NCBI GenBank assembly: GCA_963575745.1
Contig: CAUYUJ010016893.1
Coordinates: 862,733 to 926,732, forward strand
Source: Prorocentrum cordatum
Lineage: Eukaryota; Sar; Dinophyceae; Prorocentrales; Prorocentraceae
Direction: 5' to 3'
Length of the DNA stretch: 64,000 nucleotides
A model generated the notes under the pieces. The model was given only the letters and a program-made list of their open reading frames with translations. It was not told the DNA's origin and made no database searches. Within the stretch, counting starts at the first letter, position 1, and every line of letters starts with the position of its first letter. Made by a program: the position numbers and the translations under genes. Below are positions 9,116 through 41,421 of this stretch, in pieces.

Positions 9116-9131
9116 ACTTGCACTGCATCTT

Positions 9132-12933: not shown

Positions 12934-12964
<31 letters not shown>

Positions 12965-25300: not shown

Positions 25301-25402
25301 GAGGGGGAGGAGACGAGCAGGCACCGCACTTCTACATTATGCGGAAAAACAGTGCTAAGCAGCAGCGGCTGCCTACAAGGAAAGGGCGCGCGAGTAGCCT
25401 CG
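25301..25402 (-). other. 3' untranslated segment, lacking a normal polypurine tract
   Basis: About 100 bp separate the ORF3 stop from the 3' LTR. A standard element has a purine run on the sense strand just before the 3' LTR. Here the sense strand reads CTCGTCTCCTCCCCCTC, so the purine run (25301-25317) is on the other strand. No alternative sense-strand purine run is adjacent. Confidence 0.6.
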
Positions 25403-25455
25403 CTACCGGCGAGTTTCCTCGCTATTAAAGCGCACCTGCCCGCGGGTTTCCCCGC
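25390..25455. repeat. Cluster of three GC hairpins at the ORF3 stop
   Basis: Perfect 5-bp stems with 4-nt loops occur at 25390-25403 (GCGAG/CTCGC), 25409-25422 (GCGAG/CTCGC) and 25442-25455 (GCGGG/CCCGC). The TAG stop at 25403-25405 sits next to the first. The stem change GCGGG to GCGAG is matched by CCCGC to CTCGC. Confidence 0.85.
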
Positions 25456-28400
25456 TAGCTCGGGAGGCAGGGCCGTCCTGAGACGACCTGCCCGCCCTAT
25501 ACGGTGTATGTTTCTTCAGCTCGTGCTTGAAGGATTGCTGGCCGGCCATTACTTGTAGGAGCAACGCGCGGTCAATACTACCTTTGGTATGACCATCGGC
25601 AGTCATATCCCGCGTGTCACACCATTGAACGCTTTCAACGATTCCGCGCTCCATCATCTGGCGGATCCAGCTAATGTGCCCAAGCAGAGTACATTCTGTG
25701 GGCTTCTTCAGATCTTTGCTAGACAAAGACTTGAAGACAGACTCGGCATCAATAGTCAGAGTGACTTTGATACATAGACCACCCATTTCCAATATGTTCT
25801 TTAACTGTGTGGGGGTCAATGGTCCCGAGTGTAGCTCGTGGAGCGTTACAATGGTCGGGTAGCAGTCTTCCAAGTTGTGGGCTGCTGCCAGTGTTTCCGC
25901 AGAGTAGCTCGAACGCACCTGCAGTCGATGAGACTTGCAGTATGCGTCCACCAGGTGCACGACGGGTTTCCCCGCTTGCGTGTGGCCACGCCTCAGCAGG
26001 TTAGCCCCGCGGATACCATAGCCTTTGACTTCGTCGTCTTCATCTCCGTTGAGACGACGATAGCCAGAATCGCTATGCAGGTCGACTTCTCCTGTTGGGG
26101 TCATAGCTTGATACACGATCTTCTTCGGACCTGCCTGTAGCTTTCTGGTAACCGCGTTTAGTCGTCGTACCTGGATGTTTGTCGGTTCCTGGATACGTTG
26201 TAGTGAGACAACATAGACCATCAGCCATACCTGCGTGATCAACGCATAGGCTAGAGCGCCACGAAGACTGACGAACATATCAGAAATCGTCTTTGTCGCT
26301 TTGCTCTCAGGATCAGCTCCTGTGAGTTCTGGATGTGTGATAGGACGAAGCTGTTTGATGTATTCGTCCTGATCGAGAGTGACGCTCCCATCATCGGTCT
26401 TGTTGTACCGAACGGCACAGTTTGTGTATGTGTGCTTGTTCAGTTTGCACTTCCCAAACGTATCTTCAACACACTTGACATACTTGTCAATAGCCTCTTC
26501 CTTCCCAGTCATATTGATGTCATCAACGTGCTTGGCTGTCAAGAGGTTTGAGCTCATCTCGAACTCTTCGTCGTATGAAGTAGGCTGTAGCCCAAAGCTC
26601 CTAGTGATGGACCTGAGCTTCAGCGAGAATGCCCTGGGAGCATCCTTCGTGCCCGTCCCCGGCTTCAGACACCGAAGACAATGCTTTGATTCGTCATATG
26701 ACTCAAAGCCTGGCAGCGTGCGAAGGACAGCTGCTGACCCAGGTGGTAGTGTGAAGCACACCACACGCTCTTTCTCGCCCGTTGCCGCGGCGAGCTCGCC
26801 ATAGGTCAGTCCCTTCAAGAAAGCCATGTTGATGTCCAGGGAAGCGATGATCCAAGCTTTGTTGCATGCAGCAGAACTTGCGAGCAGTCTCTGGCTTGAC
26901 CTCCTTGCCGTGCCAGAGAAGGTTTCGACATCAAAGGCTTCAAGGTCCATGAAGCCACGGAGTACCAAGCGTAACCTGATCGTCCTTTCCATTTCGCCCT
27001 TTTCGTTCTTGACAAACTTCCATTTGTATACGTAGCGTGACGTCATGATGTTAGACGCTTTGCTCAAGTCAGTCATCTGGAAGCATTTGTTGTCAAGCCA
27101 AGTCTTCAATTCTGTGTAAAGGGCTTTGGAAACTTTGACCGGATTTGCTTGGATGTCGGCCTTCGTGAGTAGATCGTCTTCCTTGACGACCACGGCACGT
27201 TTGGAGGCAGCACTAACATATACTCGCATAGTCGTGACGCTGCTGTCATCCAACAATCGGCGTTGCTGCTCGGACAGGACGACTTTGGACATGTCTGCTG
27301 TGAAGCAGAGCTCGACGTACTTCCCGTGCTCATCGGAGTCCAGGTCATATTTACTGTCCGGATCCGTGGAGCATAAGGGAACGTAGTAAGAAGTGTCCAT
27401 GTCGTATCCTGGCGGGTGACCCCGCTCCGGCAAGTGGCCTTGCACATCTTCACAGGTCGTAGAGACTAACACACACTGTGTGTCTGTCATGTATGTGGGA
27501 ACTGTATGCATGACTTCCTCTGTGTCAGCTTCAAGGAGTGTTCTGTCATCCATCAGTTCAGCATACCACGACTTCAAGACAAAAGCATCCAGATCTTCTT
27601 CTGTTTCCTCTATGATGGTCGGGAGCCGACCATCGTTATCCGTAGGAGGCTCCTCAGGAGCAGCTGCTGGAGGTGATTCGCTTGGTGGTGGACCATCAGC
27701 GAGTTCCTCAAACTTAGTGAGGTCTTGGTCAAACCCAGCAGACGGCTTCCTGGATTTAAGACACTGGATGATGCGTGAGTGTGTAGATCCTGTGATGTCG
27801 TAGATGTTCAAGGCAGTGCCATCAGCTTCGTAGTAATGAAAGCCAGGGGTCACATCATTATCATAGTGCACTAATGTACAGCTGTCTGCATAGGGTGCAG
27901 CAGGCAACTTCGTCAGGCTCTTAGCAAGTCGTACAGCAACAACGTTTTCAATACGAAAGTAGTTGCGTATGAGGTACTGAAGAGCCAAGTGCACCTTAGG
28001 CGAAAGTCGGCTCGCAGCAGTCATCTGCAGCCGACCCTGTTTCGCTGGTAGATATCCGAAAGTCATGGCGGGTTTCCCCGCTGGCAGACCGGCAATAAAG
28101 GCCAATACTGTCCGAAGGGCCGTATTGTCCGATCCTATCTCGCGGACCATAAGTGCTTCGATGTACAGCGTGTGTCGTGTGTCAGGATACTGTACTCGCA
28201 CCTCGCGACTGCCGACCTTCACGATGACCTGGCCTCGGTCAGGTTCGTTGCGGATGACCGGGTATGGACCACTCCATCCACCCCAGTCGTCTTTCGTGGT
28301 GGTCGGGCGATGATAGTCCACGAGATCTCCCTCTTTGTAGTGAAATTCACCCGTAGCAGTAGTCTTCGTACGGAGAGCCCTGTTCGTCTTGGCAACCGCA

Positions 28401-31400
28401 GTGGCCTGCGTGATTGCCTCCAGACTAACCCTCCTGATTGTTTCCTCCCTTGAGTGATCTGATGATTCAGCGGACTGATCATGATCCAAGACAGGGAAAT
28501 CGGGAAGCATAGCTGGTTGTCTGCCATACAGCGCATTGTACGGAGACACTTCATTGTAGAAGGTAAATGCGTTGCTGGCAAACAAGGCTTCATGTAAGAG
28601 ACGAGTGAAATTGAGAGGGATATTTAATCTATTCAATTCTTCTCCCATCACGTGTAAGAGGTGTCGCAGGATGCCGTTCCTAGCTTCGATAGTTGTAGCG
28701 TGTTGGCCACGCGCTCGAATACGAAGCTCTGTTCCCTTAGCCTTAAGGATGGCCTTTGCTGTATCATTATTCAGTGCTCCTTCCCCATCGGAGTATAAGA
28801 TTTTAGCAGGGCCATGTTGCATCCAAGTCGTATGATAGGCATCGAGAACAGTATGCATGGCTTTATCAGGAATCTCTGTGCCAGCTGCCCAGCGAATACA
28901 ACGGTCGATGATGTGAAAAACAATATGTTCCTGTTTGTAAAAGAAAAGATCACATTCGACTTCCTCGTTGAAACGTCCTGGCAGTGACACAGAAGGCATC
29001 ACCGTGTTGCCTGGTTTGTCCCAGGCTCGACATTCTCTACACGAGTCGCAAATGCCTTTGATCAGACTCAAACGGGTTTCACCCAGACCAACCTTGGTTA
29101 GAATCATCCGCATTTTTGGCTCCTTGGCATGAAACCATCTCAGGTGGAGTTTGCGGAGTTCTCGCTGCACTACAGCTGGGTCGAAGCTGCGCAGGTTTTG
29201 GAGGCTGAGCTGAACGTCGAAGCGAGTCCAATCAGGGAGCCTTGGCCTTGGCCTCGGCTCTGCTTGAGGCTGCGGCGGTGGTGGAGGATCTCCTCCCTCC
29301 ATGCGTCCGCGCCTTGCTGCAACTTGTGGCAGTCTACGGTGATCGTCAGAGCTGCCAGCACCACTGTTGCCACCATTAGCCCCGTCAGCTCTGGTGATGT
29401 CATGGCTGCTGGCGCCTGCGGTTGGATCGCCCTCACCAGGCCGTGGCGGCCTAGGCGCGCGTATGCGCGCTCTCGCGGCCGGCGCCGCTTTTGCGGCTGG
29501 CGCCGCTTCTGCGGCTGGAGCCGCTTCCGCGGCTGGCGCCGCAGGAGCGGCTTGCCCCGCCGGGCGCGGCTGGCCAAAGTTATCTGGCAGCTTCCATTTT
29601 TCGGCGAATCTGCATTGGCCAGATATCTTGGTGTGGTGAGGATTGCTCTTCTGATATTCCTTCTTACAGCTTGGACAGTCCCAGTAATACGGTTCAACAT
29701 CATACCACCGACACATCTTCGGATCCCTGCTGTGCTTTGGTGATTGCTTGTAGTTGTTGTCCACACAGCCAGGGCACCCAAGACCGCCAGGTGGTGGTCG
29801 CCAGATTTCTCCGTTTGGGTGTCTCCGGATTGTTGGGTCGTCCAAGTCGTAGCCAGCACTGTTTGTTACGAACGCATAGCTGCGTTCACGATTCGCGAAT
29901 GGATCGCGACCGTAAGCAAACAGGTCTTTGGCGATTTGCACCGCATCAACGATCAGTGACTGCATTCTGTAGGTATACTGTGCCGCCCTTGCTAGCTCTT
30001 TGTTACAAGCATTGGCGTGCACATGATTTCCTGGACAACGCTTGCCTCTGAAAGGTGCCAACAACTCTTCTTTGTTTGCCATCATCTGTGTTGGCTTGCG
30101 GATGTATTGTCCAAATGAATCTTTGAGACCAGTCGTGCACTGATCAATAATCGTTTGGCAAGTGACCTTGCGTTGTGCCAGTTCCTTCCATGGCTGGATC
30201 TCATCCACCCACGTGCCCATTGGTTGTTCCCTGAGAAAGAAACGTCTTAGGTCGTCTTGTAATAGAGCGACTGTTCCACAGAACGTGATGTGAGGCAGGT
30301 CCTCTTTGTGGTGTTTAAGCCACGTATCATGATTGACCTGTGCGTTGAAGTAGGAAGGGAGTCCAGTAGTTCTGCAACTTGGCTGCAGAATCGTGATCTT
30401 GACAAAGCAAGTCTTGAGGTAGTGGAGGACTGCTCTTTGTACTTCCGAGTTTCCAAGGTCAACCATAGATATCTTGTCAAGGTTCCCGCCTGACGAGAGT
30501 CCCCTCTTGAAGGCTAATATGGATATACCACCCTTGCCCCCACATAATTCAAGCATGTCCACTTGATTGTTTCTGCCGTAGCATAATGACTGGACCATCG
30601 AGAAGACATCAGCATGTGAGTCAGCGGGTTGCCCCGCCGGTAACATCATGAAGATGTCCTCTGATTCGCTGTCCGAGTCCGAGTCGTCAAGAGGAACGTC
30701 GTTGAAATATGTGGAGCAGTCAAGCCCTTTGAGGTCCTCTCCACAGTCGTCGTTACCGTCTTCCACTTTCTTCGGGACTTTCTTCGGTTTGATGCCGGCT
30801 TCTTTGTCAGCTTTCTGCTTTTCTTTCTGTTTTATCCTGGCATCAGTGGGCAACGCAGTTTCCGCGGAGAGATCCGCTGCGGAGGAATCCGCTGTAAAGT
30901 CAGGAAATGGCGGAATTTCAGGAAGGTTGTTGGTGGGTCGCGTTTGGCAACGCTCAATCGAAGGGGGAGGAGATCGATCGTCGTCGACGATCGTCACACG
31001 CTTTGGGCGTGGCCTTCGCGACTCACCATTGCCATGAAGAACTGGAGCCGGAGGCTCCCAGTATAGCCGAGTACTGATGTTTGTAACCCCATCAGGTAAT
31101 GGAGCTACATAATTGTACCCAGTTGGCTGATCCTGGATTCTGATATCTTGAACGATCTTGTTCGTGTCCAGGTCGGTCGTGACCCTACGAACCACATGGT
31201 CCCATTGAGGGCCCTTTTGTGGACATTGGACGTAGTGTCTGACCTTTTTGTCAACGCGTGTACACACACTGAGGTGTACCGCACTCCGCTCATTCCTGAT
31301 CATGTTGGCTTTATCGAGTTGATCAAGGAAGCGTGCAATAATAATAGCCAAAGTTTTATTCCGAAACTCGGCACGTTGCTGATCTTGGCCATACCAATCC

Positions 31401-31801
31401 AAATCATGCTCCTTGTGTGATCCACAAGTACATTTCCATAAGTTTATCGGTATATGAGGACAAGATGTAGCAACTTGTATATAGGAACCACTGGGATATT
31501 TACTGGATCGGTCAAACTTGATACCGAAATGACAGAGTCTGATTCGTATAGTGCTTAGCTTCAAATCTTCGATAACATCTTTGATCGGACCCTGTTTCCA
31601 GAAATACCCGGGTGGCCCCAGGATAACTATCTGCATTCTCAGAGCACGCGCTTTGATCAGGAGATTTTGTATACGTTGATAATGTGGCCCCGCCCTCTTT
31701 CCTGGAGTACGAACGTACCAATCAGAGGGTGTGGCCACCCACAACATATTGTAGTCTCCTGCCAACAAATTTCCCAAATACTGTGTTCCAGTTGAAGTCA
31801 T
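25403..31801 (-). CDS. pol: ORF3: pol polyprotein (methyltransferase-like, integrase, copia reverse transcriptase, RNase H)
   Basis: The frame has 2132 residues from the first ATG and is open in the same frame back to the UGA at 32003. An N-terminal conserved-looking block (residues 90-165) includes a CTCGSHKEH cluster. At 410-530 a methyltransferase-like segment shows LELCGGKGG, QPSCRTTG and REQPMGTW. A Cys/His cluster follows at 675-725 (CPGC..CPSC). Integrase has H (about 890) and ICDSC, then catalytic D in VECDLF (about 948), D in LYSDGEG (about 1003) and E in IEARNG (about 1036). The copia-type RT has SLDINMAFLKG (about 1654) and HVDD (about 1759) in place of YVDD. RNase H residues lie in HSDSGY, SAETLAA and DAESV (1905-2030). 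The frame ends TAG in a cluster of GC hairpins. All catalytic residues appear present. Confidence 0.95.
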   Translation of the reverse strand: MTSTGTQYLGNLLAGDYNMLWVATPSDWYVRTPGKRAGPHYQRIQNLLIKARALRMQIVILGPPGYFWKQGPIKDVIEDLKLSTIRIRLCHFGIKFDRSSKYPSGSYIQVATSCPHIPINLWKCTCGSHKEHDLDWYGQDQQRAEFRNKTLAIIIARFLDQLDKANMIRNERSAVHLSVCTRVDKKVRHYVQCPQKGPQWDHVVRRVTTDLDTNKIVQDIRIQDQPTGYNYVAPLPDGVTNISTRLYWEPPAPVLHGNGESRRPRPKRVTIVDDDRSPPPSIERCQTRPTNNLPEIPPFPDFTADSSAADLSAETALPTDARIKQKEKQKADKEAGIKPKKVPKKVEDGNDDCGEDLKGLDCSTYFNDVPLDDSDSDSESEDIFMMLPAGQPADSHADVFSMVQSLCYGRNNQVDMLELCGGKGGISILAFKRGLSSGGNLDKISMVDLGNSEVQRAVLHYLKTCFVKITILQPSCRTTGLPSYFNAQVNHDTWLKHHKEDLPHITFCGTVALLQDDLRRFFLREQPMGTWVDEIQPWKELAQRKVTCQTIIDQCTTGLKDSFGQYIRKPTQMMANKEELLAPFRGKRCPGNHVHANACNKELARAAQYTYRMQSLIVDAVQIAKDLFAYGRDPFANRERSYAFVTNSAGYDLDDPTIRRHPNGEIWRPPPGGLGCPGCVDNNYKQSPKHSRDPKMCRWYDVEPYYWDCPSCKKEYQKSNPHHTKISGQCRFAEKWKLPDNFGQPRPAGQAAPAAPAAEAAPAAEAAPAAKAAPAARARIRAPRPPRPGEGDPTAGASSHDITRADGANGGNSGAGSSDDHRRLPQVAARRGRMEGGDPPPPPQPQAEPRPRPRLPDWTRFDVQLSLQNLRSFDPAVVQRELRKLHLRWFHAKEPKMRMILTKVGLGETRLSLIKGICDSCRECRAWDKPGNTVMPSVSLPGRFNEEVECDLFFYKQEHIVFHIIDRCIRWAAGTEIPDKAMHTVLDAYHTTWMQHGPAKILYSDGEGALNNDTAKAILKAKGTELRIRARGQHATTIEARNGILRHLLHVMGEELNRLNIPLNFTRLLHEALFASNAFTFYNEVSPYNALYGRQPAMLPDFPVLDHDQSAESSDHSREETIRRVSLEAITQATAVAKTNRALRTKTTATGEFHYKEGDLVDYHRPTTTKDDWGGWSGPYPVIRNEPDRGQVIVKVGSREVRVQYPDTRHTLYIEALMVREIGSDNTALRTVLAFIAGLPAGKPAMTFGYLPAKQGRLQMTAASRLSPKVHLALQYLIRNYFRIENVVAVRLAKSLTKLPAAPYADSCTLVHYDNDVTPGFHYYEADGTALNIYDITGSTHSRIIQCLKSRKPSAGFDQDLTKFEELADGPPPSESPPAAAPEEPPTDNDGRLPTIIEETEEDLDAFVLKSWYAELMDDRTLLEADTEEVMHTVPTYMTDTQCVLVSTTCEDVQGHLPERGHPPGYDMDTSYYVPLCSTDPDSKYDLDSDEHGKYVELCFTADMSKVVLSEQQRRLLDDSSVTTMRVYVSAASKRAVVVKEDDLLTKADIQANPVKVSKALYTELKTWLDNKCFQMTDLSKASNIMTSRYVYKWKFVKNEKGEMERTIRLRLVLRGFMDLEAFDVETFSGTARRSSQRLLASSAACNKAWIIASLDINMAFLKGLTYGELAAATGEKERVVCFTLPPGSAAVLRTLPGFESYDESKHCLRCLKPGTGTKDAPRAFSLKLRSITRSFGLQPTSYDEEFEMSSNLLTAKHVDDINMTGKEEAIDKYVKCVEDTFGKCKLNKHTYTNCAVRYNKTDDGSVTLDQDEYIKQLRPITHPELTGADPESKATKTISDMFVSLRGALAYALITQVWLMVYVVSLQRIQEPTNIQVRRLNAVTRKLQAGPKKIVYQAMTPTGEVDLHSDSGYRRLNGDEDDEVKGYGIRGANLLRRGHTQAGKPVVHLVDAYCKSHRLQVRSSYSAETLAAAHNLEDCYPTIVTLHELHSGPLTPTQLKNILEMGGLCIKVTLTIDAESVFKSLSSKDLKKPTECTLLGHISWIRQMMERGIVESVQWCDTRDMTADGHTKGSIDRALLLQVMAGQQSFKHELKKHTPYRAGRSSQDGPASRASGETRGQVRFNSEETRR
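29475..29560. repeat. Tandem hairpin array, 18-nt period
   Basis: Hairpins start at 29475, 29493, 29511 and 29529, with a one-mismatch copy at 29547, each exactly 18 nt after the last. Stem arms are GCGGC/GCCGC with loops CGGC, TGGC and TGGA. They encode Ala-rich AAPAAEAAPAAEAA. The same 18-nt spacing occurs at 33537/33555/33573, 34138/34156 and 35328/35346, and a 24-nt spacing at 32412-32497. Confidence 0.85.
30180..30575 (-). other. SAM methyltransferase-like domain within ORF3
   Basis: LELCGGKGGISILAFKRG resembles the glycine-rich SAM-binding motif I of cytosine methyltransferases. LQPSCRTTG stands where motif IV would be, with PSC instead of PPC, and REQPMG where motif VI (ENV/ENP) would be. 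Dinoflagellate LTR elements are known to have captured cytosine methyltransferases, which makes this reading reasonable. The altered motifs leave activity uncertain. Confidence 0.45.
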
Positions 31802-31970
31802 TACCTCATTATGGGTAATCCGGTCGCATATATATCCACGGGTTCGGAGTTCAGCGCAAGCTGTGCGAATATCTTCGATGACGAGACATTTTGAATGATA
31901 TTTTTCTTCTCGGGCCTCAGCGCGGCCAACGTATGTCGCGAGGAGGCCGGTATTCGGCTTCTCTTCGCAA

Positions 31971-32010
31971 GCGAGCGCCGCCGGCGCGCCCGCCTGCCCC
32001 CGTCAGCGGC
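31971..32010 (-). promoter_or_regulatory. UGA-CGG readthrough site joining ORF2 to ORF3
   Basis: ORF2 ends CGC CGC UGA and the next codon is CGG. From there to the first ATG of ORF3 (31801) the same frame has no stop, which I checked codon by codon. UGA followed by CGG, with downstream structure, is a recognised leaky-stop context in several plant RNA viruses. Here the next 30 nt are almost pure GC with GGCGCGCC and GCGCC/GGCGC pairing. The 67 codons between stop and ATG encode a sensible peptide (for example CLVIEDIRTACAELRTRGY), which suggests that ORF3 protein normally begins by readthrough. Confidence 0.75.
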
Positions 32011-35000
32011 GGTCGTGTGACCACGTTGCCGTCTGACTCGGGGGCATGCTGTTAGCGGATGGCTCCGCAGGAGTCGCTGGTGCGGCTACGCTCACGATCT
32101 CCACGCGGGTTGGCCCCGCAGAGTCCGACGAACCTCCGCCCGTGTAGCTTGGTGGTGGTGGCGGTGTCGCGGGTGGCCCCGCTTGGTTCTCAGGCGTCCA
32201 TTTATTCACCGCCTCCTGGACTGCCCAAAATATCTTGGACTTCAGGGCATCCTTCATATGTGGCCAGGTCCCTTCGGGACACTGTTGGCCCTCCCACCAG
32301 CTGTTCAGCGTCCTGTCCACGATCAAACGGGTCGTGTCTTCCAGGAGCTGCTTGTCGAGATACGGCTCGACAATGTACGTATCAGTCGTGACGGTCATGG
32401 ACTGTCCCGTCGCGGGTTGCCCCGCTGTGGTCTCGGCGGGTGGCCCCGCACTTACTCCGGCGGGTGGCCCCGCACCTACACCGGCGGGTGGCCCCGCACT
32501 GACGGGGTCCTCTTCGTTCTCCGTCTCGGTGTAGCCATCCCGACTGCTGCGGATTGTGAAGGTGTTCGTGACCGTCTGGCTTTTAGCCCCGTCATACAAC
32601 CCGCAGGGAATGGCTAGATGTCCTGAGGGACTTTTCTTCGCCCTCAGGACCTTGGCGCCCCTCCCCAGCTTCAGAATATAATCTCCGCTGGGGAAGATAA
32701 CCTTCTGGTAGCCTGGCTTCAGCACGATGATCGTGTCACGTGCTTCCATGGCACCAAGGCCCCAGATGGCCGGGAGGTTGGCACCCGAGCCTTCTGCGAT
32801 GTTGGAGGCATACTCCTCGATACGGGGGCTTGCCTCATTGGCGTATTGCACCCCGATCTTGAAGTTGCCCATTTTCCGACATATCGCAGCACCCTCACCG
32901 ACACCGTTGATGTAGAGGGTCTTGCTCAGGGTGCATATGGCAGGTCTGTGATTGTACCTGGCCATAGCCTCCTGGAAGGTTCGCGCCGTATTGGCCCCGA
33001 TGATGTTCACGTTGGAGCCAATGTCTAGCATGAACGAGATGCACGGCAGTCCGTCTTCGTCAGGGAAGAACGTCCCGTTCCGCGCTGCCAGAGCCATCGT
33101 ACCATGGTCATCAGTGTGGTACGTAATCTGTGAACCGAGTGTGCCTTTCAACAGGCGCTGCTCAAGCACCCATTGGCTCATGGTTAACTCGGTGCACCAC
33201 ATCTGCTCATATTGGCGGCGCTCCTCTACGGCAATTGGTTCCTGTTCAAGAACCCAATAATTCGCAGAGAGTGTGGACGTCCATTCACCTCCTGGCGGCA
33301 GCGTGTCCGTGTCGTCACGTGCATAGGTCAGCCCTTTTGTATCAATCATGAATGTGGTGTGGAACTGGGCTGCCTCCGCACTTTCAGCGCTTGCCCGGCT
33401 CCTAGCGCTGACCGGGCTCGCCACACGTGAGGTCCTGGATGATCCAGTCAGCCTGCGCGTCCCGCCTCCGCTCCTGCCACTCCGCCTGATATTGGCCTCC
33501 ATTGCCCTCAGGAATCCTGGATTTGGAAGTCCATTTGCGGGTGGCCCCGCTTTGGCGGCGGGAGCCGCTTCGGCGGGTGGCCCCGCTGCTGGGGGCTCCT
33601 GCGCTCGAAGCGTAGGCAGGATTGGCATCTGGATGCCTTGCTCTGGCGCTGGCCAGGGGTGTGTCTGTGCAGCTGGAGCACGTGCGGATGGCTCCGCCGA
33701 GTGTGCGGCTCGAGCCTCTAGTGCCTCCACTGCTTCCCGCAGCCGACGCAGTTCCCGGGCATCTACCACGTACCTTTCCTGCTGGCGCGCTTGTTCCGAC
33801 TCAGCGTCGCGCTGTCCAGCATACGGGAAATGTGCTGTAATTATGCCCGGCCCACGACATACAGCGCAGGGGGCCTCGTTCGGCGCACCTGGTCGCTGAT
33901 TGCGGACGTGCTGCTGTGCAACACGATCCCAGCATATATCGTGGAAGAAGTGCCCGCACGCCAGTCTCCACACTGTGGTGCCCATCTCGTAGGAGTCCAT
34001 ACAGATTGGGCACTGTGTGAAGTTGTAGTCTGAAATGACTGGAGCAGGCACGTCGGGGCGAGTCCGAGCCTGGCGCTCGAAAGTGGTTTCGCCCTCCCGA
34101 TATGGCGTCGGTGGCGGCAGTCTATCTGTTCGTTCAGCGGGTGGCCCCGCGTCTGCGGGTGTCCCCGCTTGGTTTTCACGCTCGATCCTTCTCTGGATCG
34201 CGCGCTGTTGGCGCAGCCTGGCGTTGTCCCGAGCCTGCTGCCTAGATGCCAGTATCGCTTGCTGCGTGTTGTGCACGTCGCGGATGTAGTCTGGCATGCT
34301 GCCCATAGCGGCTGGCACCGCGAGACCAGCTGGCTGAACTACGGTCTCGGGGTCCGTCGGCGTGGGCATGTAGGCGTAGTGCGGCATAGACTGCGCATCG
34401 ACCGCTCGTGTAAACTGCAAACGAAACATCTCATTAGCAAGATTCCGAGTGTATTCGTTCGCAGGTGGCCCCGCAATCATAGGAGTGTTATTCATCTGCG
34501 CGTAGTACTCCGGGTACATCGGCGCGTCCATGGCCTGTGCCTCTGCTGGTCCATGATTGTCCCATCCATATATTGGGTGTGATGCTATTCCTGGAATAAA
34601 CACCTGTCGATATGGATTCGTAGGATCAGCATTTGGAGCATCATCAGAAGTCCAGCTCCAGAGAGGCCGAAAGTCGCCATGATTCGTAACATCTATGTTG
34701 CGGTTCCGCAACAGGCTGGGCACTCTATCAGCTTGTTGCTGCAGAAAGGTAGCCTGTGCTCTCAAGTTAGCTGCCCGACGTTCGTAGTCTGAACCTTGCT
34801 GTCCGTCAGCGGGTGGCCCCGCATGTGCGGATGACTCCGCAGGCGTTCGCTCGGCGGGTGTCCCCGCAGCCACTCCTCCTTCACTACCCCTCGGAGTGCC
34901 AAAGGGAGTGGTCGCCTGGAGTGCTGCTGCGAGCGCCGGATTTCCGCGAATCGCCTGGAGTCTTTGCCACAAGCTGTTCTCGCTCGTTTCAGACGGCGGA

Positions 35001-37267
35001 GTCCGAAACGGCGAGCCACCATCTGAACCGCCCATAGGGACAAACCTCGCACCTCCAGCCTGCTGCGGAGGGCGTTGTGGTTGTGGTCCTAGGACGCCTG
35101 GTGGCCCCGCAGGAGTGCGCAGGTTCCTCTGCTGTGCGTCTTGGATACCTGTATGCACCGCCCACGGGTCAGCACGATATAACTGATCGGTCAGTCCAGA
35201 GACGTCGGCTGATGTCAAATGACTGTTGAGGGCCTGGACCCATGACTGCTGGTCCGGCCTCAAAGGAGATGCTACCATTGCTACTGGTGTGACCACTTGT
35301 TGCCATGAACCGTCCGAGGTGTCTGCCGCGGGTGTCCCCGCACCTGCGGGTGGCCCCGCTTCAGGCATGACCACGTCCTCCTGGGCATTCATCATGAGGA
35401 CTGTCTGTGTGTCGCACGGTCGTGGAGCAACATCTTGCTCGGTCATGACCAAATTGAATGGGCGACCGTCCGTTTTAGTCCAGCCCTTTAGGTACATGGC
35501 GTGATCTTCCATTACACCCAGAGTTCTGTCACACATTTTAAGTGGCAGGTAGTCATCGGTGCGAATCCTGTCCGCGGGTTGACCCCGCCTCCGCGACTTG
35601 TCATAAGCCAGCGGATTGCTCCAGGCTTCGCCGACCCGATATTTCGCAATGCTCACTATCTGGAGGATATGATCGGGCGGTATACGTCCGTCGTGGCCCC
35701 GTGTCATGACTATGTCATTTGCTGATCTCCATAGAGAGAAGCCACTGGACAGCATCTTGTTGATGCTGCAGAATATGAGCACCTCCGAGTCAGGACGGAT
35801 GCCCGATTGAATCCTCGGGTCGCCCGGGAGGTAGGGGCAGCCGTGCACAAATTGGCGCCCCCCCTTCCTCTTAGGGTTGTCCTGTGCGAGGCATGAAAGG
35901 CCATTAGCAAGGATGTCCTTGACATACTCCCACTGTGTCCCGTGGATGAAATATACTGGGTCGTCTGGTTCTTTCATCCATGTTGTGATCGGCTTGTACA
36001 GCGACTCGGGACAGTGGATGCCTGGACTGCTGTGGCCGTTCGTGGCTCTGATGAAGTACTGTGGCCTGCGTGCCTTTGGTCGAAACCTGGGAGGCAGCAG
36101 CATGCTGTCCTCAACGCACTTCATCTGGAGCCTGCCCTTCTGCATGCCGTGATGGTCAATCATCTCACAGCAGTTTAGCAGCACCCAATACACGTATGAC
36201 GTGTGGGGCCTGCCCTTGATCAGCACCTCGTGCATTTCACGATAGCCTTTCCACTGATCATTTTCAGTCCAGTTTGTCAGCAGATCGTCAACGACAACCC
36301 AGCCATCGTATGGATCGAAAGTGCTGATCTTTTCGAAGTGTCGGCTGAATCCGTCCTTCCAATATGGACTGTGGCGTAGGGCTGTGGAAAACCATATTGA
36401 CACCTTGGTCATCTGCCCTTCACGCGGCAAAGTCGGATCCATGCCGAACCTCTCCATGACCTTCAGGAGCTCTGCTTTATGCTGCGCAACACGTAGTGGC
36501 GGCCTGTCTCGCAACATATTTCCCACGGTTTGTTGTTCACGTTCCCAGTCGTTGCGGCACTCGAAGTTACGACGAACTGGACAATTAATGACTTCGTATC
36601 GGTCCGTATCGTCTGGAGTGACTCGTGGGTTTATGGTGCGCTTCGGGCCTTTGCCTTCAATGCCTTGCCAGTATTCGATGGCTCCCAAAGGGATGTTCCT
36701 GAGAACAGACATTATTGGCTGCCCTTGTGCGGGTGGCCCCGCTAATGCAGCCGGCGGCGCTTTAACGGGTGGCCCCGCTAATGCAGCTGGCGCCGCTTTA
36801 TTGGGTGGCCCTGCAGAACCTGCGGCCGACGAGGCAGCTCCTGCGGATGACTCCGCGCCAGGGTTCGGGTGACCTTCGTCAGCAGCTGCATCATCGGTTA
36901 GTTTCTGTTGGTCGCCAAACTCTTTGAGGACTCTGAAGCGTTCTTCTCTTGAGAGAGTGCCTTCTGCGGGTGTCCCCGCTGTTACGGCTGGCGCCGCTTT
37001 AGCGGGTGGCCCCGCAGAGCCCTTGTCCTCCTTAGCCTTGGCGGCCGCTTCTGCCCGCACCGACCTCATCCCAGCTTCGGGCTTCGGCTGCGCTTTCATT
37101 CGTGCCGAACCTGGTCGTGGTGCAAGGCGCGGCTGATGCAGAGTTGGAGTCCAGTCACCTCGGAAAGCTGCCTGAGGCTTGTCGCGAACTTCGTCCTTGA
37201 CATCGCCTTGGGTCGCCGGTGGCATCGGGGTCGATGGTCCAGCAAAAGCCTTCTTCCTCTCTGTCAC
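32003..37267 (-). CDS. ORF2: polyprotein with Tpt1/KptA-like, RING-H2 and retropepsin-like domains
   Basis: A frame of 1754 residues, open upstream to 37456. At about 435-560 a region has the layout of RNA 2'-phosphotransferases (Tpt1/KptA): YFIHGTQWEYVKDILANGL, then GRQFVHG, then an Arg-containing SGIRPDSEVLIF strand and GHDGRIPPDHILQIV. The known family uses NAD to remove an internal 2'-phosphate from RNA. At about 1084-1137 a RING-H2 finger reads CPIC..CGHFFHDIC..CAVC, suggesting ubiquitin-ligase activity. At about 1400-1510 LDIGSNVNIIG with a later LPAIWGLGAM fits a retropepsin, although the usual DTG/DSG is DIG. Many linkers are AGPPA-type peptides encoded by hairpins. The frame ends at UGA 32003-32005, after which the same frame continues into ORF3. 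Confidence 0.85.
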   Translation of the reverse strand: MTERKKAFAGPSTPMPPATQGDVKDEVRDKPQAAFRGDWTPTLHQPRLAPRPGSARMKAQPKPEAGMRSVRAEAAAKAKEDKGSAGPPAKAAPAVTAGTPAEGTLSREERFRVLKEFGDQQKLTDDAAADEGHPNPGAESSAGAASSAAGSAGPPNKAAPAALAGPPVKAPPAALAGPPAQGQPIMSVLRNIPLGAIEYWQGIEGKGPKRTINPRVTPDDTDRYEVINCPVRRNFECRNDWEREQQTVGNMLRDRPPLRVAQHKAELLKVMERFGMDPTLPREGQMTKVSIWFSTALRHSPYWKDGFSRHFEKISTFDPYDGWVVVDDLLTNWTENDQWKGYREMHEVLIKGRPHTSYVYWVLLNCCEMIDHHGMQKGRLQMKCVEDSMLLPPRFRPKARRPQYFIRATNGHSSPGIHCPESLYKPITTWMKEPDDPVYFIHGTQWEYVKDILANGLSCLAQDNPKRKGGRQFVHGCPYLPGDPRIQSGIRPDSEVLIFCSINKMLSSGFSLWRSANDIVMTRGHDGRIPPDHILQIVSIAKYRVGEAWSNPLAYDKSRRRGQPADRIRTDDYLPLKMCDRTLGVMEDHAMYLKGWTKTDGRPFNLVMTEQDVAPRPCDTQTVLMMNAQEDVVMPEAGPPAGAGTPAADTSDGSWQQVVTPVAMVASPLRPDQQSWVQALNSHLTSADVSGLTDQLYRADPWAVHTGIQDAQQRNLRTPAGPPGVLGPQPQRPPQQAGGARFVPMGGSDGGSPFRTPPSETSENSLWQRLQAIRGNPALAAALQATTPFGTPRGSEGGVAAGTPAERTPAESSAHAGPPADGQQGSDYERRAANLRAQATFLQQQADRVPSLLRNRNIDVTNHGDFRPLWSWTSDDAPNADPTNPYRQVFIPGIASHPIYGWDNHGPAEAQAMDAPMYPEYYAQMNNTPMIAGPPANEYTRNLANEMFRLQFTRAVDAQSMPHYAYMPTPTDPETVVQPAGLAVPAAMGSMPDYIRDVHNTQQAILASRQQARDNARLRQQRAIQRRIERENQAGTPADAGPPAERTDRLPPPTPYREGETTFERQARTRPDVPAPVISDYNFTQCPICMDSYEMGTTVWRLACGHFFHDICWDRVAQQHVRNQRPGAPNEAPCAVCRGPGIITAHFPYAGQRDAESEQARQQERYVVDARELRRLREAVEALEARAAHSAEPSARAPAAQTHPWPAPEQGIQMPILPTLRAQEPPAAGPPAEAAPAAKAGPPANGLPNPGFLRAMEANIRRSGRSGGGTRRLTGSSRTSRVASPVSARSRASAESAEAAQFHTTFMIDTKGLTYARDDTDTLPPGGEWTSTLSANYWVLEQEPIAVEERRQYEQMWCTELTMSQWVLEQRLLKGTLGSQITYHTDDHGTMALAARNGTFFPDEDGLPCISFMLDIGSNVNIIGANTARTFQEAMARYNHRPAICTLSKTLYINGVGEGAAICRKMGNFKIGVQYANEASPRIEEYASNIAEGSGANLPAIWGLGAMEARDTIIVLKPGYQKVIFPSGDYILKLGRGAKVLRAKKSPSGHLAIPCGLYDGAKSQTVTNTFTIRSSRDGYTETENEEDPVSAGPPAGVGAGPPAGVSAGPPAETTAGQPATGQSMTVTTDTYIVEPYLDKQLLEDTTRLIVDRTLNSWWEGQQCPEGTWPHMKDALKSKIFWAVQEAVNKWTPENQAGPPATPPPPPSYTGGGSSDSAGPTRVEIVSVAAPATPAEPSANSMPPSQTATWSHDRR
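33846..34016 (-). other. RING-H2 finger within ORF2
   Basis: The eight ligand positions are visible: CPIC, then C and H in ACGHFFH, then C in DICW, and finally CAVC. The spacing is that of a RING-H2 domain, which binds two zinc ions and recruits a ubiquitin-conjugating enzyme. RING fingers are not part of standard copia gag-pol. Confidence 0.85.
35580..35965 (-). other. RNA 2'-phosphotransferase (Tpt1/KptA)-like domain within ORF2
   Basis: Similarity is by motif order: an HGT near the start, a helix ending in GL, a second His in a GRQFVHG strand, an Arg in the RPDSEVLIF strand and a GXXGXIPPD turn. In the family the His and Arg residues bind NAD and the RNA 2'-phosphate. The spacing between the second and third blocks is longer than in bacterial KptA. 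A more general ADP-ribosyltransferase fold is an alternative. Confidence 0.55.
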
Positions 37268-37284
37268 GGACAGACCGGGAGGAT

Positions 37285-37456
37285 CTACCGGCTCAGGGTC
37301 GTCCGTCTTGGCGATCCCTCTGGCCTTCGCCCGCCCACGTGTGCCTTCGGGGCTCTTGGACGGGTGCCTTTTCGCAGGAGTCGGTGAAGACGAGGAGTCG
37401 GCTTTAGGTCTTGGAGGTGGTCTACTGCCCTTGCCGGTTGTGGACCAGGAGGGTCT
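37285..37456 (-). promoter_or_regulatory. ORF1/ORF2 overlap, predicted -1 frameshift window
   Basis: The ORF2 frame is open from just after a TAG at 37457-37459, while ORF1 runs to its stop at 37285. Going from ORF1 to ORF2 requires a -1 shift within these 172 nt. I see no perfect X-XXY-YYZ slippery heptamer in the ORF1 phase. The nearest runs are CGAAAAGG and GCCCCGAAGG. The first ORF2 codon otherwise available, at 37265-37267, is GTG. Frameshifting, re-initiation or splicing all remain possible. Confidence 0.5.
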
Positions 37457-40400
37457 CTAGGAGGGCCTTCTGGCTGGCCATGATCATGGATGACCTGCCT
37501 CATCTGGTCGATGTCGGCAGAGCCTTTTATGGCCAGCTTGTACTTGCCGTTTTTATGGCGGTAAAGTACCCTCGTGCAAAACCACTTCTGCGCCGAAGAG
37601 CTGCAGTACCAGCAGGCGCATCCATCAGGGAATGGATTCTCTGAGCCGTCTTCCGCCGCCCATTCTTCATTTAGTTCGGTGTGGTCAGTGCCGGCGGCGG
37701 ACCCGGCAGCAGATGCAACAGCTATCCACTCGTCGTCCGCAGGCCCAGCGGCTGGTGCCGCTTCTGCGGGTGACCCCGCTTCCTTGCTGGATTCTGCGGG
37801 TGGCCCCGCCTCTTTGCTGGATTCTGCGGGTGACCCCGCCTCTTTATGGAATCGGCGGTTCCATTCCTTGAGGCGATGGTCATTGGGAAGCTGTACCCAA
37901 TTTTCCCTGACGATGTTGGCCACCTCTTCGGTCATAGGGACGCGATCGGCTTCGGTGATGCGCTTTCCTCCTCCAGGGACCTCCTTGTTAGGATCATGGA
38001 CGTTACCAGCGTCATCTCCATGAGACCAATTCCACGGGGTCTCTCCGTGATGAGGGCTCCTGGAGGGGCGGTCCATCGGACACCTGCGCATGTGACCTTT
38101 GAAGGGCTCGCACTGACATACTTGTTTCCTGTATGTCTTGCGATCATTGATGATCTCCTGTTTCTTAGCCCTTTTGTCCCAAGCCTCTGGCGTCTTGGTC
38201 TTGCCACCCTTGGTACGTATTATCGCGCCAGTTTCGTCCCTTTTTGTGCAATACTCCTTAGAATACCAGTGGCGAAGAGTATCCATCGAGTAGCCGGGGT
38301 ACCATCTGATGTACCAATCCGGCACTTGTTGAGCAGATACTCCAACGGAGTGCTCAGTACTGTACGGATAGTCCGATTCATCATGCGTAGGGCGTCTAGG
38401 AGCTGAACGGCTCCTTCCGCGGGCTGGCCCCGCTGACGCACTACCACGTGTCATTGGCCTTTGATCGTCATGCTCTGAGTCTCGGGGAGGCGACGGTCGC
38501 CTGTCCCTCTTGGCGTAACGCATGTCCTCCGAGTCCTCTGAGCTGTCCTGGACCATGAACACGTTTTGATACGGGCTTCTGAAATACCCGATGTCGTTTA
38601 ACTGCTCCATCGTGAGGTCGTTAATGTCCATTTGATCACAACCTTGCATGAATACATCCATAGACCAAGCGGGTGGCCCCGCTGTTGCGTCTAGCGTCTC
38701 TTCGGCGGGTGACCCCGCTAGAGCTTGGAGTGCTGTCAGCATCTGAGATGCTGACATGTTCGAATCCAAGTATGGACGTAGACGTGCAACTCCTGGGTGT
38801 GACAGCAGTTCGTTCATGGTTATGTGCTGATGTGCTGGCGCACTCAGGAGTCGGATTGCTTCTGAGACCTGCTCTTGGAGCATGTCCTTATAATCTTCTT
38901 CGGCTTCTTCGGAGTCGGAATACGCGGGATGGCCCCGCATTTCGTCATCGGCGTCTCCCGCCTCCGAACCAGCCCACGAAGGATTTGGCAGCAACGGCAT
39001 GCCAATCACTTGCGGTGCCAGCACGGCGGTGAGTTCTTCCTCTGTTGCCGGGACGGTCTCGGCTTCGGAGACCTCGTCGCCGGCGGGTGGCCCCGCTGGA
39101 AGACCGAACCAAGCATTGTACGCGACCTCGTCGACCTCGTCCCAGCCGTGGAACTCGTCGAAGAGGGTCACTGCGTAGTCTTCCAGGGCTACAGTTGCTT
39201 CAGCGTAGCGGGCCATCACGTAATACGTGGAGGAGCCCGCGGCGGGAGCCGCTTCTGGATTGACGTAAAACTCGTAGTCAATGTAATCTATGTCATCCAT
39301 AAAAGAATTTTGAGCCAAATGTACGGATCCCTTTCCTTTCCCCTTCGGGCATTGATCGCGCAAATGCTCTGTGCTACCGCATGTATGACACTTCATAGTA
39401 TTGCCAGAAGCGTCCCTAGGGTTGCCCCTCCGCCCTTTTCCCTTACCGGAGGTCCGCCTGTGACCCCGACCTTTGCCTCCGATAAGAACTTCTTCAAAAG
39501 CCATATCAGTTAAGGACGTGAGGAAAGCAGTAATACCCCTACCATGCATACGGCGTCTGCGACCCCCTTTGCCACGACCCTTTCCAAATCGTTTGAAATG
39601 TCGGCGTACTGCACGTCTCACCTTTCTGACTGGTTTCTTCATAAAGCGCCTCCAACGGCGTTTTGATTTGCGATAAGCCATAAAGGCGGCTTCCGCTCTT
39701 TGTTGTTCAGAGAGGTGAGTGTCATCCGCTGGGTAGTCATTACCAGCAGAGACTATGCCATTGTGCTCATCGTCAGATGAGGTATCCGTGTCAGTGCCAG
39801 ATTCAAACGGTGAGGGTGGCTGAGACCCTTGAGCGGATGACTCCGCTTGGCCCCAGAGGGTTGTGCCCGAGGGCGGGCTTGCAGTGTAGGCGGCGCCTGG
39901 CGAGTAGTTCGACCAGGCGTTCGCCTCAGCTGCCTCTGCCGATGCCTGGCCGGTCTGCCCTAAAAGGGCAGTGGCCTCGTTGGGCATATCGGCTGGGTCA
40001 GCCCAGGGATTTGGCTCGCCAGGACCAGCGGGTGACCCCGCAGTCGTGGCGTAGACACCTGCATGTGAGTGGTGCCCTGTGAAGATACCCGCTATGTTGC
40101 CAGGAGAGCGCTCGGCAACATGTCCGTAATTCCTCATCCTGGTCAGCAGCCTGTCATAGTCTGCTTGTGTTCGGGGCATCTGATGATTGAAGGGCTCAAG
40201 CAGGTGTTGGGCTCGTGACGCGCCAACGCCTAACGCTCTGAAGAGAATCAGCGTTAGGATCTGAAAGTTGGGGATGACAAAGCCAACAGAGTTAGCCTCG
40301 TCACGGGCCATCTCGAATCGAGCTAATACTGAGTCGATTCGCTCGCCCCTTTCGACGCGGAAGTCGATAAGGGCAGTGCCAGAGTTGAGCTGGCGCTCAT

Positions 40401-41268
40401 CTTCCAGATTTTCAAATTTGGTGCTCAGTAAGTACAGTATATATGTTACTGCATCCGTTGGCTGTCCATTGACAGTTACACCATAATTGATGATCTGGGA
40501 GGGGACCTGCATGGCGATACGACGAGCCAGACCTTGAAGGCCTCGTTGTAGTGCTGCAGCTTGTTGTGGTGGTGTCATATTGCCACTCGTTACGTTTAAC
40601 CATGCATGTACTTCGCGAACGTATTCGCGGAAAGGCGTAGTACCGGCAGGGTCCCATGAAGGGCCAGTAGTACGCGTGTCGTCCATCCCCTGCCGCATGT
40701 ATCCCACAGCACATCCCATTATTACCCACAGAATGCCGAAGATAGTTATCTTAATCCAATGCATGTGCATTTCGGCTTCGGTGATTGGTTTGGGCTGTGG
40801 TTTGTCAGGCTCTGGCGTGGTAGCCGTGAGGCGCCTGACCGGCACGGGATGCAGGTGGCCCCGCTGCGGGTAGCCCCGCAGGGTGACCACGTTCTCGATC
40901 GAGTTGCCGATTGGCATCTGGTGGAAGTCGGGAGTGAAGTAGCGCAGTGAAGTAGGAGAGAGCGTCTCGAGTTCGCGGGTTGCCCCGCTAGCTCGATCGC
41001 GGACTGGCTCCGCTCCTCGCAGAGCCGGCGCAACATGGTATTCCACCGTAGTAGTAGTCCACCAAGTTGTGCCGTGGATTACAGGAATCAGAGCGAGAGC
41101 CAGCCACACGAGAGTGTAGCCAGCTCCGCTACCAAGTCGAAAACAAGCTGGTAAGCTTAGGTATGTGTTACGCTTTAAGCGTTGCCATATCCCAGGCTTT
41201 GGCTCATATCGCATGAGCAAGAGTGCAAGACGAAGCATGGGATCTGGAGTAAAGGATAGGATGGGCAT
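37285..41268 (-). CDS. gag: ORF1: gag-like polyprotein with CCHC zinc knuckle and two hydrophobic segments
   Basis: A frame of about 1327 residues opens at ATG 41268 inside the LTR. The longer frame starts at a non-ATG codon, so I prefer this ATG. Hydrophobic segments at about residues 52-66 (YTLVWLALALIPVI) and 171-190 (IFGILWVIMGCAVGYM) are unusual for a copia gag and may anchor particles in membrane. A helical capsid-like region spans about 215-390. A basic stretch is followed by the RNA-binding knuckle CHTCGSTEHLRDQC (C-X2-C-X4-H-X4-C) near 627-640. A late Cys cluster (CACWYC) lies near the C-terminus. Proline-alanine linkers encoded by short hairpins recur throughout. The frame ends TAG at 37285-37287, overlapping the open ORF2 frame by 172 nt. 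Confidence 0.85.
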   Translation of the reverse strand: MPILSFTPDPMLRLALLLMRYEPKPGIWQRLKRNTYLSLPACFRLGSGAGYTLVWLALALIPVIHGTTWWTTTTVEYHVAPALRGAEPVRDRASGATRELETLSPTSLRYFTPDFHQMPIGNSIENVVTLRGYPQRGHLHPVPVRRLTATTPEPDKPQPKPITEAEMHMHWIKITIFGILWVIMGCAVGYMRQGMDDTRTTGPSWDPAGTTPFREYVREVHAWLNVTSGNMTPPQQAAALQRGLQGLARRIAMQVPSQIINYGVTVNGQPTDAVTYILYLLSTKFENLEDERQLNSGTALIDFRVERGERIDSVLARFEMARDEANSVGFVIPNFQILTLILFRALGVGASRAQHLLEPFNHQMPRTQADYDRLLTRMRNYGHVAERSPGNIAGIFTGHHSHAGVYATTAGSPAGPGEPNPWADPADMPNEATALLGQTGQASAEAAEANAWSNYSPGAAYTASPPSGTTLWGQAESSAQGSQPPSPFESGTDTDTSSDDEHNGIVSAGNDYPADDTHLSEQQRAEAAFMAYRKSKRRWRRFMKKPVRKVRRAVRRHFKRFGKGRGKGGRRRRMHGRGITAFLTSLTDMAFEEVLIGGKGRGHRRTSGKGKGRRGNPRDASGNTMKCHTCGSTEHLRDQCPKGKGKGSVHLAQNSFMDDIDYIDYEFYVNPEAAPAAGSSTYYVMARYAEATVALEDYAVTLFDEFHGWDEVDEVAYNAWFGLPAGPPAGDEVSEAETVPATEEELTAVLAPQVIGMPLLPNPSWAGSEAGDADDEMRGHPAYSDSEEAEEDYKDMLQEQVSEAIRLLSAPAHQHITMNELLSHPGVARLRPYLDSNMSASQMLTALQALAGSPAEETLDATAGPPAWSMDVFMQGCDQMDINDLTMEQLNDIGYFRSPYQNVFMVQDSSEDSEDMRYAKRDRRPSPPRDSEHDDQRPMTRGSASAGPARGRSRSAPRRPTHDESDYPYSTEHSVGVSAQQVPDWYIRWYPGYSMDTLRHWYSKEYCTKRDETGAIIRTKGGKTKTPEAWDKRAKKQEIINDRKTYRKQVCQCEPFKGHMRRCPMDRPSRSPHHGETPWNWSHGDDAGNVHDPNKEVPGGGKRITEADRVPMTEEVANIVRENWVQLPNDHRLKEWNRRFHKEAGSPAESSKEAGPPAESSKEAGSPAEAAPAAGPADDEWIAVASAAGSAAGTDHTELNEEWAAEDGSENPFPDGCACWYCSSSAQKWFCTRVLYRHKNGKYKLAIKGSADIDQMRQVIHDHGQPEGPPRDPPGPQPARAVDHLQDLKPTPRLHRLLRKGTRPRAPKAHVGGRRPEGSPRRTTLSR
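41123..41134 (-). promoter_or_regulatory. Primer-binding site, initiator tRNA-Met type
   Basis: On the sense strand TGGTAGCGGAGC follows the LTR directly. Its complement, GCTCCGCTACCA, ends in CCA and closely resembles the acceptor end of eukaryotic initiator tRNA-Met, the usual primer of copia elements. The site lies within the ORF1 coding sequence (residues around 47-51). The host tRNA sequence itself is not visible in this window. Confidence 0.85.
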
Positions 41269-41421
41269 CGTCAATGGAAAAGGTATTTTCCGATCTCTGA
41301 TGCAAGTCGTGCGCCTCAGTGAGGCACAGTCATATATTTGGCCGGGCCCGGCTTGAGCCAGGCACGGCAGCGGTACATGCTCGATTTATACCTCGCCTTT
41401 AACCTTCTCCGTTTAAAGTCG
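41135..41421 (-). repeat. 5' LTR (promoter side)
   Basis: Same sequence as the 3' LTR. In sense order it carries TATAAAT at 41390-41384, then 23 bases on from its first T CCGTGCCTGGCTCAAG (41367-41352), which resembles the spliced leader. Two palindromes follow, and the ORF1 ATG is at 41268, so gag translation begins inside the LTR, as in yeast Ty1. That leaves about 150 bp of LTR upstream of the ATG for promoter and leader. Confidence 0.95.

Follow-up and report, generated by a model that had tools for sequence, protein, structure and literature searches.

Dispersed packaging signals have been proposed for some viral genomes. Multiple packaging signals that share a recognition motif and are scattered over the genome are described for RNA viruses and hepatitis B virus in passages by Twarock and colleagues (PMC6281560), and excerpts from further papers describe stem-loops with a shared loop motif along viral genome RNAs (PMC4751978, PMC3593212, PMC7612645, PMC7793301). 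For the long terminal repeat (LTR) elements Ty1 and Ty3, passages of a review state that the sequences responsible for packaging lack a clear definition and that a number of scattered sites are probably involved (PMC4974528). How far RNA viruses and retroelements in general package their RNA via many dispersed hairpins is an open question. Here we analyze a stretch of 64,000 nucleotides from the dinoflagellate Prorocentrum cordatum (assembly GCA_963575745.1, contig CAUYUJ010016893.1, positions 862,733 to 926,732; "the window" in what follows). It contains an LTR-type retroelement on the minus strand, with three long open reading frames (ORFs) that carry tens of small GC-rich hairpins.

These hairpins are strongly strand-biased, and what selection maintains in them is base pairing and the identity of the loop, not the peptide. 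On the coding (minus) strand the unit reads GCnnG-GNNA-CnnGC and forms a hairpin with a 5-bp stem and a 4-nt loop. The window has 57 perfect 5-4-5 palindromes that start with GCG, and 49 of them lie between positions 25390 and 40988. The original prediction, made from the sequence letters, had listed at least 44 GC hairpins of four stem types in this interval (28 GCGGG, 7 GCGGA, 7 GCGGC and 2 GCGAG). The hairpins are real, and our count is 45 (29, 7, 7 and 2, respectively). The prediction was right about the stems and the loop length, but it treated the loop as free when it is in fact mostly of the G..A type, and it overlooked the strand bias. Seven of its units, at 29475, 29511, 30864, 30879, 33555, 37748 and 39239, have sense-strand loops other than G..A.

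A G..A loop is found in 47 of the 91 perfect 5-4-5 hairpins on the sense strand of the element, 46 of these within ORFs. The next of the 16 loop-end classes, T..C, has 10 hairpins. A T..C loop on the sense strand is a G..A loop on the opposite strand, and the strand bias of the window element is 47 to 10. When synonymous codons were shuffled 1000 times in the three ORFs, G..A hairpins numbered 2.3 on average and 7 at most, compared with 46 observed; in the same shuffles the GCG-stemmed G..A hairpins numbered 0.32 on average and 3 at most, compared with 39 observed. Codon shuffling, which the original prediction had proposed as a control, does not reproduce the stems. A scan of GC-anchored stems with any loop gave 57 hairpins at loop length 4, against 1 to 7 at lengths 3 and 5-9. 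Strong enrichment is thus limited to this loop length and to the G..A class. The remaining 47.6 kb of the window have 3 and 8 GNNA hairpins on the two strands. Within the element, 43 GC-anchored G..A hairpins are spread from element nt 434 to 16032, across the internal region and with none in the LTRs. Some form tandem arrays, which in the window family have periods of 18, 24 and 30 nt.

The unit recurs elsewhere in the genome, which has 4.13 Gb in 21,875 contigs. The pattern GCGGGGNNACCCGC has 14,835 + 16,145 sites, against 1,680 + 1,710 for the reversed control. Among the first 100 sites listed of these 30,980, which come from low-numbered contigs, 87 are clustered (four or more sites on one strand within 20 kb), and 78 of these 87 lie in loci tied to two families. 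Copies of the window family (family 1) share 92-99% identity, except for a 683-nt piece at 83%. Family 2 comprises loci L035-L038 and L041-L042, the copies of which are 75-94% identical; it matches the window element in parts, with 65-67% identity. Its sense strand also shows GCnnG-GNNA-CnnGC, with loops that are mainly GAAA, GCAA or GAGA and with stems that include GCTCG, GCAGG, GCGGG, GCTGG, GCCTG, GCCGG, GCACG, GCGTG and GCGCG. The six family-2 loci have 99 GNNA versus 3 TNNC hairpins, and in four of them the G..A class has 65 hairpins versus at most 6 for any other class. Six arbitrary 10-kb loci had 0 to 2 GNNA and TNNC hairpins in four cases, 3 in one and 8 in one. In a third cluster (L043, L051), sites are paired in 8 of 14 cases in L043 and 0 of 5 in L051, and of the 11 unpaired sites eight carry a single G.U pair; the four L043 ORFs submitted to Pfam yielded no recognized domain. 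At about 7463-7704 of L039 there is also a tight series of GCGGG-GCTA/GTTA-CCCGC hairpins, with the sense on the minus strand.

Because circularity had to be reduced, we also selected sites by the pattern GCnnGGNNACnnGC, which fixes three of the five stem pairs and leaves two free, so that pairing by chance is expected in 1 of 16 cases. Such sites are paired in 34 of 36 cases in the window element, in 64 of 68 in family-1 loci and in 85 of 94 in family 2, where 11 of the 16 possible dinucleotides are used and where three copies contribute homologous sites to the 94. Five arbitrary loci have a single such site on both strands together (unpaired), and the rest of the window has three, one of them paired. 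On the antisense strand there are none in the window element, two in family-1 loci (unpaired) and one in family 2 (paired). When 61 of the sites, from L035, L036, L041 and L042, were aligned (59 distinct rows), 99.7% of cells paired, versus 78.2% in shuffles (0 of 500); structures slid along the alignment paired in 25-49% of cells. For the distinct rows, pairing holds in 117 of 118 cells at the two pairs left free, and one of these pairs shows all four Watson-Crick types (GC 24, AU 13, UA 12, CG 8, besides GU 2). Rows from homologous sites are related; nevertheless, even one copy taken by itself has different stems at different sites.

Homologous sites show what has been kept. Between L041 and L035, which are 22% diverged, the proportion of changed positions is 3.3% in stems, 3.3% at loop ends and 0% in loop middles, compared with 47% for the three 5' flanking bases; between L041 and L037 the values are 3.3%, 0%, 0% and 42%. 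In each comparison 14 of 15 ungapped units are strictly paired, and two further units have gaps in the compared stretch of 20 nt. Of the palindromes with other loops, 2 of 9 remain paired. Pooling all eight locus pairs, which overlap, gives 102 of 112 units paired, compared with 53 of 94 palindromes of other kinds; flanks evolve at no more than the average rate in the two pairs with the least divergence (4% and 7%). Compensated stems are found under shared flanks (GCGAG/CTCGC versus GCGGG/CCCGC). Where a unit is missing from an alignable family-2 sister copy, the difference consists of substitutions, once of a 1-nt indel, and never of a unit-sized gap; unalignable were 4 of 23 units (L035) and 3 of 23 (L037) relative to L041, and 4 of 13 (L042) relative to L036. 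The gapped cases in family 1 fall in the 24- and 30-nt tandem arrays.

The aligned regions of the two families have just two G..A hairpin positions in common, one at the peptide DERQL in gag and one at the peptide AGKPA. At the latter, the window element has GCG GGG AAA CCC GC and family 2 has GCA GGG AAA CCT GC, a difference of two synonymous changes under which peptide and stem are both preserved. The original prediction had named stem-breaking codons under such peptides as its refutation, and this site shows the opposite: codons differ under one peptide with the stem intact. The DERQL site is a TGAGC-GNCA-GCTCA palindrome in a conserved gag peptide (window 40386-40399, L035:2709, L041:4192), kept in both families with one loop letter varying.

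Reading phase separates the hairpin from its peptide as well. The 36 perfect units that fit GCGGnGNNAnCCGC are mostly in phase 0 (32, with two each in phases 1 and 2), and the window family accordingly encodes peptides such as AGPPA, AESSA and AAPAA. Family 2 mainly uses phase 2 (MRGNPP, QQGNLP, LLGNEP, TLGNQP, MPGNRP, THGNVP, ERGNTP); its six loci have 73 units in phase 2, 18 in phase 0 and 21 in phase 1, overlapping open frames being counted twice. In both families, amino acids encoded by the same stem vary in linked pairs, since its pairing has to be maintained. Such linkage also appears in proteins from elsewhere: in the metagenomic relative P0001 (available as protein only) all seven phase-2 motifs are linked (among them HGDVP, LGDEP, RGDTP, RGDAP and PGDRP), whereas the other 46 proteins together have 6 linked among 21, and in phase 0 linkage is seen in 13 of 17 motifs of the near-copy P0044 and in 4 of 4 of P0045, which has AGQPA four times. 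As pairing is kept under changes of stem, phase and codon, selection acts on pairing and not on the peptide. The original prediction had proposed just this, and the shuffles, the partly blind pairing test, the homologous copies, the phase differences and the synonymous compensation all agree with it.

The prediction had also assigned the host element to the copia type of dinoflagellates, an assignment that the element's sequence supports (Table 1). Its pol ORF matches RVT_2 with an E-value of 1e-10 (42.1 bits, Pfam cut-off 31.6), a search with pol residues 860-2050 returned 40 proteins, of which the nearest is metagenomic (68% identity) and two are named Symbiodinium, and P. cordatum proteins match parts of the middle ORF, covering 7-12% of it, at 93-100%. 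Alignment of pol found no relative in IMG/VR or in the GTDB genomes, nor did a two-unit pattern in IMG/VR. Matches to other copies stop near both ends of the element. The LTR reads CGACTTT...TTCGACT; the flanks show no obvious duplication, and the exact ends are not fixed by an empty site. The sequence next to the 5' LTR, TGGTAGCGGAGC, we take to resemble initiator-tRNA sites. The gag ORF starts within this LTR (41135-41274) and reads through the primer-binding site as LGSGAG, which the relative P0045 encodes as well. A long array of GCCTCA-type hexamers (23599-25007) adjoins the 3' LTR.

Besides its zinc knuckle, gag carries a basic KGKGKG tract. The middle ORF encodes a KptA/Tpt1 RNA 2'-phosphotransferase domain (E 1.2e-15) that matches the solved chain 7yw3_A (tRNA 2'-phosphotransferase 1) and contains LRH, IRA..GHS and SGIR, presumably the catalytic motifs of KptA/Tpt1. 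The domain is also present in family 2 (L035:5886-7151), and Pfam recognizes a weak zinc knuckle, KptA and RING in L035. The RING finger is shared with family 2 and with the more distant relatives P0046, P0035 and P0037. In a literature search, the titles and abstract openings of the matches listed revealed no retrotransposon with a KptA/Tpt1 domain. P0044, filed under a metagenome-assembled genome of Myxococcales, is 91% identical to the gag region of the element and continues into the middle ORF; it is probably dinoflagellate DNA in a bacterial bin.

Table 1. Retroelement features and hairpins, in window coordinates. Hairpins are named by their first position, stems and loops as on the sense strand.
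Feature	Position	Strand	Remarks
Whole retroelement, 16.4 kb, LTR-type, RVT_2	25014..41421	minus	Delimited by terminal direct repeats, RVT_2 and ends of matches to other copies
5' LTR, 287 nt	41135..41421	minus	Identical to 3' copy
3' LTR, 287 nt	25014..25300	minus	Identical to 5' copy
Primer-binding-site-like TGGTAGCGGAGC	41123..41134	minus	Directly inside 5' LTR; also translated
gag-type ORF	37285..41274	minus	Zinc knuckle 39343-39393, below Pfam cut-off
Middle ORF	32003..37267	minus	KptA/Tpt1 ~35696-36307; RING finger ~33854-34015
pol ORF	25403..31801	minus	RVT_2 reverse transcriptase ~26312-27091
Hairpin GCGGG-GCAA-CCCGC	40975..40988	minus	Phase 1
Hairpin GCGGG-GCTA-CCCGC	40866..40879	minus	Phase 2
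Hairpin GCGGG-GCCA-CCTGC	40851..40864	minus	One G.U pair
Hairpins 39833 (GCGGA/TCCGC), 40028 (GTCA loop)	39833..40041	minus	
Hairpin GCGGG-GCCA-CCCGC	39083..39096	minus	
Hairpins 38669, 38705	38669..38718	minus	
Hairpins 37766, 37796, 37826	37766..37839	minus	30-nt tandem period
Hairpins 36729, 36843, 36966, 37002	36729..37015	minus	G.U variants 36765, 36783, 36984
Hairpins 35328, 35346	35328..35359	minus	
Hairpins 34137, 34155, 34809, 34827, 34854	34137..34867	minus	Wobble variants 34308 (U.G), 34461 (G.U)
Hairpins 33537, 33573, 33684	33537..33697	minus	
Hairpins 32055, 32169, 32412, 32436, 32460, 32484	32055..32497	minus	24-nt period in last four
Hairpins 30624 (GCAA loop), 30940 (GCGTT/AACGC)	30624..30953	minus	
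GC-anchored G..A hairpin, non-GCG stem	30158..30171	minus	Position derived from gaps between units
Hairpins 29493, 29529 (GCGGC/GCCGC)	29493..29542	minus	Overlapping one at 29520
Hairpin GCGGG-GAAA-CCCGC	28068..28081	minus	Codes AGKPA; family 2 GCAGG-GAAA-CCTGC, AGKPA
Hairpins 27412 (GCGGG-GTCA-CCCGC), 27430	27412..27443	minus	27412 in phase 2, RGHPP
Hairpin GCGTG-GCCA-CACGC	25978..25991	minus	G.U variant at 25962
Hairpins 25409 (GCGAG-GAAA-CTCGC), 25442	25409..25455	minus	25442 in phase 1
Hairpin GCGAG-GCTA-CTCGC	25390..25403	minus	Past pol ORF; first base alone within pol stop codon

With moderate confidence, we read the hairpins as dispersed recognition sites on the genomic RNA, to which Gag or a partner would bind to package that RNA. 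The genomic RNA would carry a dispersed array of about 30-45 copies of a GC-anchored 5-bp stem with a GNNA (GNRA-like) tetraloop, and each copy would be laid over whatever reading frame the protein can accommodate at that point, chiefly where gag, the middle ORF and pol evolve fast. Working as RNA, the hairpins would offer repeated binding sites to the element's RNA-binding protein or a host partner. The identity of the binder is a guess that weighs on this reading. The first candidate would be Gag with its zinc knuckle and basic tract, a natural reader because its RNA binding selects genomic RNA. The binder may use many weak sites jointly to recognize, condense and package its own long RNA. 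We propose that the positions turn over between families at constant density because the sites are redundant. Many copies, a fixed shape and loop, free stem letters, redundant positions and a spread over the internal region to the exclusion of the LTRs are features to be expected of a multivalent binding code. The wider claim, that a lineage of LTR retroelements carries throughout its coding sequence a distributed self-recognition code of dozens of GNNA hairpins, in any reading phase and with free stem letters but constant shape and loop, that its own protein reads cooperatively to package the RNA, is in our judgment evenly balanced. Among the functions that we infer (packaging, dimerization, pausing), packaging or recognition ranks first.

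Several observations weigh against this reading. The spacing of the units is uneven, and no unit lies inside the RVT_2 core. T..C hairpins also exceed the shuffles (in the ORFs 7, versus a mean of 1.2 and a maximum of 5); the element has ten, of which four closely resemble the unit and have GCGG stems, and another four come from the two LTR copies. Predicted local folding does not set the window units above other palindromes of the element (mean helix probability 0.57 versus 0.63); the corresponding values are 0.73 versus 0.71 for L041 and 0.89 versus 0.43 for L037, and only L037 is better. In phase 0, the remaining proteins are linked in 23 of 69 motifs, which is no sign of linkage, and the pol relatives P0002-P0020 (52-57% identity) have at most one linked phase-2 peptide each. 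With so few linked peptides in most pol relatives, the feature is therefore not general to such elements; judging by the protein sequences it probably exists in other elements or species, though most pol relatives give no sign of it.

Selection on base pairing probably acts at the RNA level. Single departures from pairing comprise 29 wobble pairs versus 9 A.C or C.A and 9 other mismatches, a count that comes partly from sister copies that are not independent, which tempers it; the window element alone has 6 wobble versus 2 A.C or C.A departures. (At stem position 3, the variants GCGGGGNNACCTGC, GCAGGGNNACCCGC and GCAGGGNNACCTGC correspond to G.U, A.C and A-U, respectively.) The wobble excess favors RNA. 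It speaks against a hairpin that acts at the DNA level, in reverse transcription or integration, although with rows that are not all independent the test is a weak one. Perfect palindromes exist in DNA too, and GNNA mini-hairpins are stable in single-stranded DNA, but we consider this explanation quite improbable. The most serious alternative, unlikely as we think it is, stays with RNA: GNRA tetraloops dock into receptors, and loops that dock in receptors or helices, or arms that pair between hairpins, could compact or dimerize the RNA without any protein. GNNA loops and interchangeable arms would allow this, and the unremarkable local folding of the window family may be due to the swapping of arms. 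In family 2, however, the arms are not interchangeable, since the stems differ from site to site; arm swapping is therefore not what is conserved. Next in rank, and unlikely too, is handling of the RNA by the host, in which a host hairpin-binding protein would serve nuclear export, stability or escape from silencing. The anatomy would be the same, a very long RNA needs export, and at least two families of elements in the one genome carry the hairpin, but 78 of the first 100 genomic sites listed belong to clusters in loci tied to these two families, and wide use by host genes is therefore not apparent.

Control of translation, with hairpins slowing ribosomes between domains for folding or frameshifting, would fit the fast-evolving, linker-like flanks of the units as well as their absence from the RVT_2 core. 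Yet one hairpin (25390-25403) lies past the stop codon, and pausing needs neither a fixed loop nor free stems; we regard this as very improbable. Hardly any credence is left for palindromic units that insert into the element selfishly in the manner of Rickettsia palindromic elements. The tandem arrays of the window family could be taken as their trace, but one orientation prevails, and the gains and losses at alignable homologous sites occur by substitution, which is evidence against selfish insertion. The likeness to gene-invading palindromes that the original prediction had drawn is thus not supported, given the sense-strand bias, the clustering in few loci among the first 100 sites listed and, where sister copies can be aligned, the substitutions in place of unit-sized insertions. 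Just as little credence goes to a low-complexity Ala-Gly-Pro peptide with biased codons and no nucleic-acid role: AGPPA-like peptides of the window look the part, but the synonymous shuffle, the change of phase between families, the diversity of stems and the synonymous compensation rule out a peptide or codon artefact. A known RNA family is ruled out as well, as Rfam at gathering score gave no match in window positions 24900-41500 or in L035, L036, L041 and L042.

If the wider claim of a distributed self-recognition code is true, no natural example of RNA packaging through one uniform, repeated signal would be clearer than this element. The signal is plain here, as the same hairpin occurs tens of times per molecule and its covariation is visible within one element, and two codes, for protein and for nucleic-acid shape, are overlaid. 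We know of no earlier retrotransposon in which one uniform signal, repeated along the RNA, would serve packaging. The titles and abstract openings of the matches listed in a literature search made no mention of hairpins like these in any retrotransposon, and the text of PMC11453091 has no occurrence of "hairpin", "stem-loop" or "palindrom". With the dinoflagellate Ty1/copia elements, the window element has RVT_2, terminal repeats, a weak zinc knuckle and Symbiodinium relatives in common; it differs in its length of 16.4 kb, its KptA/Tpt1 and RING domains and its hairpin array. Rickettsia palindromic elements and mitochondrial GC clusters are likewise palindromes inside genes or reading frames. 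They are longer inserted units, whereas here no insertion was seen where sites could be aligned, one orientation predominates and substitutions preserve the pairing.

For Ty1 and Ty3, the known packaging determinants lie mostly in the 5' region. Their genomic RNA is that of an LTR element and is recognized by Gag, and the passages of the review describe no repeated uniform hairpin (PMC4974528). The viral dispersed packaging signals of MS2, satellite tobacco necrosis virus, the hepatitis B virus pregenome and enterovirus E resemble the present hairpins in being many stem-loops with a shared loop motif and a paired stem, spread over the genome RNA. Viral packaging stems and motifs are looser. 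In contrast, the hairpins described here have a uniform 5-bp stem frame and a 4-nt G..A loop, and their host is an LTR-type element.

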